A DNA stretch of 64,000 nucleotides from an uncultured Victivallaceae bacterium (GTDB taxonomy: Bacteria; Verrucomicrobiota; Lentisphaeria; Victivallales; Victivallaceae), in NCBI GenBank assembly GCA_944389925.1, contig CALXOD010000017.1, positions 1 through 64,000 of the forward strand. Direction: 5' to 3'. Of this stretch, positions 38,270-39,748 are shown in pieces. The number at the start of each line of letters is the position of its first letter. Position 1 is the stretch's first letter. A model generated the notes under the pieces. That model was not told the DNA's origin. It saw nothing but the letters and a program-made list of their open reading frames with translations, and did no database searches. A program made the translations under genes and the position numbers.

Positions 38270-39190
38270 TCAGGAATAAAGCCAGGTGGAAAGATAGCGT
38301 TCCCCGGAATCCGGCAGCAGCACAACGATCCGCTTCCCTCTGAATGTCTCCCGGTCCGAAAGTTTCAGTGCCGCGGCCAGAGCAGCTCCGGAAGAGATGC
38401 CGACCATCACCCCCTCTTTGCGGGCCGCTTCCCGGGCCGTCTCCCCGGCCGTATCGGCATCAATCCGTACAATTTCGTCAATCAGAGTCCGATCCAACAC
38501 CTTCGGCACAAATCCGGCCCCGATTCCCTGGATTCGGTGCGGCCCTGCCGGACCACCGGAAAGCACCGGCGACTCATCCGGCTCCACCGCCACTGCGTAC
38601 AACGCCGGATTCCGCTCCTTCAACCGCGCCGCCACCCCGGTCAAAGTACCACCGGTCCCCACCGCTGCAACAAATACATCCACTTTGCCGTCGGTGTCGC
38701 GCCAGATCTCCTCCGCGGTCGTCGCCCGGTGGCAGGCGGGATTGGCCGGATTGTCGAATTGACCGGGAATGACAGACCCCGGATTTTCCCGCTGAAGTTC
38801 CTCTGCCCGCCGAATGGCCCCGGTCATCCCCTCCTCTCCCGGCGTCAGCTCAATCTCCGCCCCCAGTGCCTGGAGCAGCTTCCGCCGCTCTATGCTCATG
38901 GTCTCCGGCATGGTCAGAATCAGCCGGTACCCCTTGACTGCCGCCGTCATGGCCAGACCGATTCCGGTATTGCCGCTGGTCGGCTCAATAATCAAACCGC
39001 CTGGCCGGAGTCCCTGATGACGTTCCGCATCGGCAATCATCGCCGCACCCACCCGATCCTTGACACTGGACATCGGGTTGAACATTTCCAGTTTGGCGAG
39101 AATTTCCGCCCCACCATGATTCAATCGATTGATCCGCACCAGCGGGGTATTGCCGATCAGTTCCAGTACATTAGCCGCAATCTTCTCCAT
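38270..39190 (-). CDS. cysK: cysteine synthase (O-acetylserine sulfhydrylase)
   Basis: 306 aa from the ATG at 39190 (AGGAGA at 7 nt). A fold-type II PLP enzyme: [26 protein letters not shown] with the PLP lysine, [26 protein letters not shown] (phosphate loop) and [12 protein letters not shown]. It makes cysteine from O-acetylserine and sulfide. A cystathionine beta-synthase-like role cannot be excluded. The upstream leader carries one copy of the 113-bp repeat starting 27 bp before the ATG. Confidence 0.94.
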
Positions 39191-39216
39191 ATTTTGTCTC
39201 CTGTAATCCCCGGAAA

Positions 39217-39329
39217 GTTGCTTCCCCTCGGCCACGGGCCTCGGGGCCCTGCTTTGCAGGACCGCTACTTGCCGGGGGCCCCGCTCTACGGTGCTCCGGC
39301 CGGTTCTACCGGCCTCGCACCTGCGAGTT
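39217..39329. repeat. 113-bp direct repeat, copy 1
   Basis: Matches copy 2 (39353-39465) with only a handful of mismatches. GC-rich with internal palindromes: CCTGC/GCAGG, GGGGCCCC and GGCCGGT/ACCGGCC (perfect here). It is followed by a T-rich 23-bp tail, also partly repeated. It lies in the cysK leader. Confidence 0.85.
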
Positions 39330-39352
39330 TGGTTGTTTGATTTTTACTTTTC

Positions 39353-39465
39353 GTTGCTTCCCCTCGCCCACAGGCCTCGGGGCCCCGCTTTGCAGGATCG
39401 CTACTTGCCGGGGGCCCCGCTCTACGGTGCTCCGGCCGGTTCTGCCAGCCTCGCACCTGCAAGTT
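39353..39465. repeat. 113-bp direct repeat, copy 2
   Basis: Second copy, same orientation, period 136 bp. Some stem positions have decayed relative to copy 1, e.g. the GGCCGGT arm. No insertion-sequence gene is attached. Confidence 0.85.
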
Positions 39466-39748
39466 ATGGTTGATTTTTTATGCTCCCAACCGCTTTCCGG
39501 TGCTCCTGTGCTGAAACTGCCCGCACCCGAATTTGATCCGAAATACTTTTTCCGGCATCCTTATTGAAACTTTACCATGGTTCCTCTGAAAAATCAATCC
39601 CCGAACGGTTGCAAATCCTCCGCGGCGCCGTTATCTTATCCATGCGGCACAGCCGAACAAATCAGCGGGAAGACCATGACGGTCGTATCCCGGATTTCCG
39701 GAACGGTTTCTCCGCCACGACGGCGAACCCAATGCGAAAGGGAAAGAC
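39466..39748. other. intergenic sequence with no credible gene
   Basis: Short plus-strand frames occur, but with no SD and atypical composition. The last bases carry the SD (AAAGGGAAAG) of the 39749 gene. No clear promoter was found. Confidence 0.4.

Follow-up and report, generated by a model that had tools for sequence, protein, structure and literature searches.

Folded repeats in a cysK leader belong to a dispersed, probably mobile element family found at gene boundaries in relatives of Victivallis vadensis

Introduction

What is a doubled, highly structured repeat doing directly upstream of a cysK-like gene? The question arose in a 64,000-nt stretch of DNA from an uncultured Victivallaceae bacterium, analysed over its whole length (the window). 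An initial annotation had described two same-direction 113-bp copies with a period of 136 bp and few differences, each holding several palindromes and a T-rich tail, the nearer copy lying 27 bp from the cysK start. It recognized no known riboswitch in them and proposed either a dispersed REP/MITE-like family or a structured leader RNA.

Results

The cysK leader holds two copies of a folded element

The direct repeat described by the initial annotation is present at 39217-39329 and 39353-39465, with 94% identity over 113 nt and the expected period of 136 bp. Comparison of the window with itself by blastn extended the repeat to 123 columns (92.7% identity, E 4e-47), and the other matches to it within the window were short and weak. 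Palindromes and a T-rich stretch are found in each copy, and the distance of 27 bp between copy 1 and the cysK start is correct (ATG at 39190-39188, minus strand). We took the minus strand, the direction of cysK, as the sense strand of the element. The gene name follows the initial annotation; the product is a PF00291 pyridoxal-phosphate enzyme, as expected for a cysteine synthase, which we take it to be. An Rfam search of the window matched only a tRNA, and a search of five element loci at E≤5 gave two matches at a tRNA and one weak sRNA match, none of them on the element. No Rfam family (riboswitches, HEARO, group II intron domain V and others) scored on the element above its gathering cut-off, which agrees with the view that this is no known riboswitch. 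Beyond copy 2, a 17-nt stretch that resembles part of the element may be the trace of a further copy, and GGGAG at 39483-39487, in the left flank of the pair, may be a left Shine-Dalgarno remnant or may belong to the possible decayed third copy at the same place.

Table 1. Features of the cysK leader region in the window
Feature	Position	Strand	Evidence
cysK-like gene, 306 aa, ATG at 39190	38270-39190	-	PF00291 PALP, E 2.1e-76
cysK Shine-Dalgarno AGGAG, 4 nt past the element 3' end	39198-39202	-	Sequence and offset
Element copy 1, gene-proximal, complete fold	39207-39327	-	Model match 119.8 bits, E 1.3e-19; RNA fold -71 kcal/mol, z -4.36
Copy 1, P3 3' strand ACTTTCCGGGG, at the element 3' end	39208-39218	-	Structure count and mapping
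Copy 1, inner hairpin P4 (CCC..GGCC/GGCC..GGG)	39224-39245	-	Structure count and mapping
Copy 1, inner hairpin P5 (CCTGC/GCAGG)	39248-39260	-	Mapped; helix variable within the family
Copy 1, P3 5' strand CCCCGGCAAGT	39267-39277	-	Pairs with 39208-39218; 4 of 11 helix pairs changed on both sides (14-copy alignment)
Copy 1, domain I, long hairpin (helices P1 and P2) with two G/A-rich internal loops	39284-39327	-	Counted structure, mapped
Element copy 2, upstream, without the P3 3' strand	39351-39463	-	Model match 65.1 bits; fold z -1.0, barely better than shuffles
Possible remnant, 17 nt, like the 3' half of P1	39490-39506	-	3 matches in window vs 0.26 expected
Candidate cysK promoter TTGATT, 17 nt, TAAAGT, upstream of both copies	39569-39597	-	By eye; both hexamers also in G001 and G002

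A dispersed family of folded elements

When the unit was searched against its own genome (2.8 Mb in 69 contigs) as DNA, one further copy was found at 85% identity, and DNA matches occurred in 9 of 61 genomes, its own included. A covariance model built from an alignment of 14 copies found seven copies in the own genome and, at E≤0.01, matched 36 of the 78 family genomes, representing 8 of 19 genera. At E≤0.001, the model matched 34 of 197 genomes of the class, 32 of them in the family of Victivallis vadensis. The copies are a dispersed family of folded elements of ~120-130 nt in that family; the search through the genome and its relatives that had been proposed with the initial annotation yields further copies in both. 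The largest number in any genome, 38, is found in G034. Two weak model matches occur in another family of the same order (G170 and G176). A genome-wide pattern scan returned 19 stretches, of which eight came from unrelated organisms (L067, L069, L073, L075, L076, L077, L079 and L081) and were taken as chance; six of these eight gave nothing at E≤0.1, while L081 and L076 gave weak model matches (E 0.01 and 0.067).

Several loci depart from the simple single copy. One locus of the own genome (L113, G000:C19:2930-4551) has three copies; the 3' ends of two of them lie 4-5 nt from the stop codons of two genes, between which another gene was called. Three V. vadensis loci (L055, L056 and L057, on G026 contigs C7, C6 and C25) form a subfamily with a common 3' flank, and on C7 two copies lie in inverted orientation ~310 bp apart. 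In genus g16 (G072 and G075; L187-L195 and L217-L220), the core sits inside a longer repeat with conserved flanks, partly in tandem and away from start codons; in G072 the repeat extends further on either side.

The element is also present in prophage DNA, a label that rests on PHROGs matches for the G101, G023, G008 and G034 loci and on inspection by eye for G000:C38, where the one protein tested had no match. Three IMG/VR phage contigs (L267, L268 and L269) carry the element, and by eye the L267 copy occupies the same gene junction as a G008 copy (G008:C21, L127). Element DNA had no match in phage and plasmid collections. A viral search with a G101 prophage protein found no relative, and one with a G023 prophage protein found three relatives at 48-54%.

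The fold is supported by paired changes

On the sense strand, the element has seven to eight helices: the P1/P2 hairpin with its two G/A-rich internal loops is followed by P3, which closes a junction containing P5 and P4. P5 is variable, and other hairpins take its place in some copies. In the 14-copy alignment, from which the common structure was written and on which it was also counted, 95.3% of cells pair and 21 of 37 pairs changed on both sides; none of 500 shuffles and no slid register comes near this result. The covariation analysis proposed at the outset thus supports the fold. Among 127 distinct copies, 36 of the 37 pairs changed on both sides, although these copies (138 matches before duplicates, from 95 chosen loci) were fitted to the model and hence lean towards it.

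The informative strand is probably the minus strand, the direction of cysK, because docking of the 3' end on genes follows that direction and because copy 1 folds with z -4.36 compared to -3.06 for the complement strand (copy 2, -1.0). The ratio of G-U to A-C pairs was 191:157 with all pairs, 191:62 without columns 16/80 (a nearly constant A-C) and 6:10 in the 14-copy alignment; this ratio decides neither the strand nor between RNA and DNA.

Some lineages carry additional ends. An extra hairpin, P0, precedes the core in G026, G034 and one G020 locus (GATGG..CCATC, GACGG..CCGTC or AATGG..CCATT). In G034 and G026 a tail ACA follows P3, with A, C and A at its first three positions in 15, 15 and 14 of 16 start-associated copies (14 from G034 and two from G026). 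ACA before GGAG is common to paralogs, so part of the right-hand end is borne by the element. In tandem arrays, upstream copies often lack the last P3 nucleotides (by eye); the array at G026:C9, with complete copies, is an exception. We also considered that the P0 region might hold a short leader ORF (M-x-I-P-S-K-Y) and rejected the idea, because some copies have lost this frame and the hairpin accounts for the conserved sequence (by eye).

The 3' end docks at gene boundaries

The initial annotation had not anticipated that the 3' end of the element is docked on gene boundaries, often at the Shine-Dalgarno (SD) site. Genes around the 138 matches were called with a simple home-made codon-usage finder; 103 of the matches are the last copy of their array, 62 outside genus g16 and 41 within it. 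Outside g16, a protein-gene boundary lies 0-20 nt from the 3' end in 42 of the 58 terminal copies with a called 3' gene, compared to 5 of 48 on the 5' side (Fisher p 7e-11, kinship ignored). Where the neighbour is on the same strand, its start lies 3-20 nt past the element in 32 of 42 copies, and at 14-18 nt in 23; where it is on the opposite strand, its stop lies at 0-5 nt in 10 of 16. Twenty-five copies end 14-20 nt before a start, and in 20 of them the SD begins 4-5 nt past the element. Within g16, by contrast, all 19 same-strand starts are at least 84 nt away, and a single one of the 19 opposite-strand stops lies at 0-5 nt. The copies are not independent: half of the 32 docked starts (16) come from G034, and the orthologous copies in G000, G001 and G002 and two G034 terminase copies were counted singly. 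L122 and L123 were scored as undocked, yet by eye an SD and ATG lie ~14-17 nt past the element.

Beyond the 42 of 58, a tRNA gene lies 2-6 nt from the end of four more terminal copies, tRNAs having been sought in five chosen loci. Because docking also occurs near stops and tRNA ends, the target is more than the SD alone. The tRNA neighbours are tRNA-Gln, tRNA-Trp and tRNA-Ala (L116, L180, L126 and L128), and the tRNA-Gln site carries the element in both G009 and G101.

Filled and empty sites point to insertion

Presence and absence of the element at orthologous sites were seen at ilvD, at a terminase gene and at a prophage gene pair. At ilvD, the element is present in G034 and absent from G009 and G101, whose coding DNA is 89% identical; six other orthologs also lack it, by eye. 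The insert lies within the SD, flanked by AAGGAG (left) and AGGAG (right), and the upstream sequences of the three genomes correspond by eye. For three further G034 genes, the orthologs (in three, four and three genomes) have no element within 330 nt; their upstream sequences differ and the junctions say little. A terminase large subunit gene (PHROGs) is preceded by the element in two G034 prophages (C35 and C27) and by none at a third G034 locus (C41) and in G091, with proteins 99% identical; the insert gives the upstream frame a stop codon and the downstream gene a G-rich stretch and an ATG. Among the matches listed, the other terminase relatives are free of the element for 185 nt. An antisense element in a G101 prophage lies within a 155-bp gap between two genes that abut in a G026 homologue. 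At such sites, insertion is the likelier reading than repeated loss.

The flanks suggest what happens to the target. At G023:C24, the element is bracketed by a 19-nt direct duplication containing the SD and ATG. In 9 of 12 P0-bearing copies, the left flank differs from AAGGA by at most one mismatch, compared to a background of 1.6%; 12 of the 14 P0 copies were used, the two omitted both lying inside the G026:C9 array. The duplicated stretch is variable in length (5-6 nt at ilvD, 19 nt at G023:C24 and almost none at the terminase gene). These junctions are consistent with duplication of the SD during insertion. At G034:C32 (L409), P0 and the linker are kept and the core is absent, while the G026:C23 ortholog (93% identity) has the core; this solo left end is probably a deletion of the core, and it may instead be an older state.

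A proposed mobile element that spares its target genes

Neither of the two candidate mobilising enzymes searched for accompanies the element consistently. The Y1 transposase domain (Y1_Tnp, PF01797) was found in four of the 21 carriers searched and in three of the seven non-carriers (7 of 28 genomes in all), with two matches in G034 and none in G000, G026, G020, G072 or G081. We also rejected a reverse transcriptase, as expected for a retroelement such as a group II intron or retron: RVT_1 (PF00078) matched three of the 18 carriers and none of the eight non-carriers among the 26 genomes searched. G020 has eight RVT_1 matches of nearly equal score (L383 and L386-L392), possibly group II introns. 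Inspection of P0-bearing copies by eye showed no terminal inverted repeats at their ends, which are not fixed to the base, nor was an integron attC core motif seen by eye.

We propose, with a probability of roughly two in three, that these are short, non-coding, non-autonomous mobile elements that dock at gene boundaries, chiefly translation starts, and spare the gene, and that cysK is a case in a 5' untranslated region. Read in the same direction as the neighbouring gene, a single strand of the element would fold into the P1/P2 hairpin followed by the P3 stem holding two or more small hairpins. Insertion would take place at gene boundaries, with translation starts predominating in several genera; there the SD region would be duplicated or supplied anew by the element end. 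The gene would then keep a ribosome-binding site beside its start codon and stay expressed, in line with the small predicted effect of most comparable copies on SD accessibility. The element would thus be mainly a gene-sparing parasite. We also considered that it homes to the SD by base pairing: an anti-SD-like P3 5' strand (CCCC, CTCC or CCTCC) would pair with a GGGG or GGAG target, captured as the P3 3' strand and serving as, or lying beside, the new ribosome-binding site. Homing of this kind would account for the P3 covariation, for the loss of the P3 end in many upstream array copies and for docking; we consider it improbable as a mechanism.

The active form of the fold could be single-stranded DNA rather than RNA, with a role in transposition like that known from IS200/IS605 elements and REPs. 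Orientation-specific insertion beside a short purine motif without terminal inverted repeats, the subterminal hairpin P0 beside the left flank, the lack of a clear G-U excess and the two Y1_Tnp matches in G034, the genome with the most copies, all fit this idea. However, Y1_Tnp is absent from 17 of the 21 carriers searched, including V. vadensis G026 and G020, and we hold this reading to be somewhat unlikely.

Alternatively, insertion may not be site-specific at all: elements would land anywhere between genes, and selection, or deletion beside the 3' end, would leave them abutting an indispensable SD, stop codon or tRNA end. This would explain docking at stop codons (10 copies) and near tRNA ends, where no SD is needed, as well as the varying duplication lengths and the undocked g16 copies, and tightly packed prophage genes offer little other room. 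Yet the empty ilvD sites have a non-coding stretch of very roughly 150 nt (by eye), and the insert still lies in the SD with no obvious loss beside it. The SD-like left flank of most P0 copies and the offset of 4-5 nt between 3' end and SD in 20 of 25 copies also argue against untargeted insertion, which we regard as doubtful.

The element in the cysK leader

Within the genus, the cysK leader has one element each in G001 and G002 and is doubled in the species studied here. The G001 copy still matches the model (E 0.0006); in G002 (L159) the 5' half has decayed, the 3' end is conserved and the model does not match. Because the other two species have one copy or its remains at this place, the insertion at cysK appears to be old. 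Because the G002 copy has decayed, the fold would not be essential at cysK in that species. The promoter-like pair TTGATT-17-TAAAGT lies within a block conserved in all three species; it is not among the listed matches of a consensus promoter scanner. Since this conserved block lies upstream of the elements, they are probably part of the 5' untranslated region, and we infer that they are transcribed as the cysK leader. As to the structured leader RNA of the initial annotation, the position between the promoter-like pair and the cysK start suggests that it may well be so.

A different matter is whether such leaders control their genes. If the element were a cis-regulatory RNA (a riboswitch, protein-binding leader or thermometer) whose copies arose by duplication of a useful leader, its strong covariation, near-fixed place before the start and tandem copies would be explained. 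Orthologous cysK leaders also carry it, as do the leaders that precede one glutamine-synthetase-like gene in both G000 and G002, and the nearest SD-like stretch overlaps the element end in 8 of 32 start-associated copies, with a predicted unpaired probability of 0.00-0.67 (0.00 in L170 and L171). However, the downstream genes share no family or single pathway: of the ten proteins encoded behind docked copies, nine could be assigned to Pfam families, each to a different one, an argument against a riboswitch. In 22 of 24 comparable copies (the exceptions are L127 and L158), the predicted SD accessibility changes by no more than 0.2 when the element is left out, antisense copies lie beside stops, others lie at tRNA genes, and the cysK copy has decayed in G002. 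We therefore find such a cis-regulatory leader distinctly improbable. A chance local duplication without wider meaning, which the adjacency of the two copies might suggest, has virtually no credence, given copies elsewhere in the own genome and in 35 further genomes.

Discussion

Host-sparing mobile repeats usually hide between genes or splice themselves out. The Victivallis elements appear to spare their host by settling at the boundaries of genes, in many cases at the ribosome-binding site, where a working site is left behind; docking at ribosome-binding sites would be a new targeting strategy. The family would put folded 5' leaders on many genes in Victivallis relatives as well as in their prophages, and the elements would be a natural source from which gene-control RNAs could evolve.

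The proposal of a REP/MITE-like family holds in part: the elements are dispersed and probably mobile, as copies in the own genome and its relatives and the empty sites indicate; membership in the REPs is not supported. A REP or REPIN unit is a short single palindrome of 20-40 nt. The present elements resemble REP/REPIN with RAYT as dispersed palindromic repeats in clusters, but the unit is a multi-helix one of ~125 nt and Y1 transposases occur in 4 of 21 carriers. A strict assignment to the MITEs of DDE transposons would call for terminal inverted repeats, of which none were seen by eye, and for a target-site duplication of constant length; an SD-like repeat flanks the insert at ilvD and a 19-nt duplication that at G023:C24, with almost none at the terminase gene. 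HEARO, the IscB-associated RNA, is a mobile structured RNA element with a short target; the Victivallis element differs in having no Rfam match and no associated ORF that we noticed. Correia/NEMIS, ERIC and BOX repeats are of the same short, dispersed, structured, non-coding kind, and the element differs from them as it does from MITEs.

Bacterial MITEs are described as short, non-coding, dispersed and mostly intergenic (PMC10969869). The Victivallis element shares these features, is likewise structured and in some cases modular or tandem, and by analogy would work like a host-sparing MITE. Compared with the MITEs covered there, it differs in lacking visible terminal inverted repeats, in the docking of its 3' end on gene boundaries and in its multi-helix covariation.

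A literature search that covered titles, the beginnings of abstracts and few subscription journals found no published description of this family. The nearest published placement found is that of the start-associated sequences (SAS) of cluster K mycobacteriophages, which are much shorter (PMC3203893). Those repeats are tied to the SD, nearly all point in one direction and about half have an upstream inverted repeat (ESAS). SAS are short motifs and ESAS 17-bp inverted repeats of one phage group, whereas the Victivallis element is a folded unit of ~125 nt in host and prophage DNA. Rickettsia palindromic elements, as summarized in PMC10969869, are ~150-bp repeats that sit in unrelated genes and spare them; they lie inside genes as open frames, whereas the Victivallis elements lie at gene boundaries.
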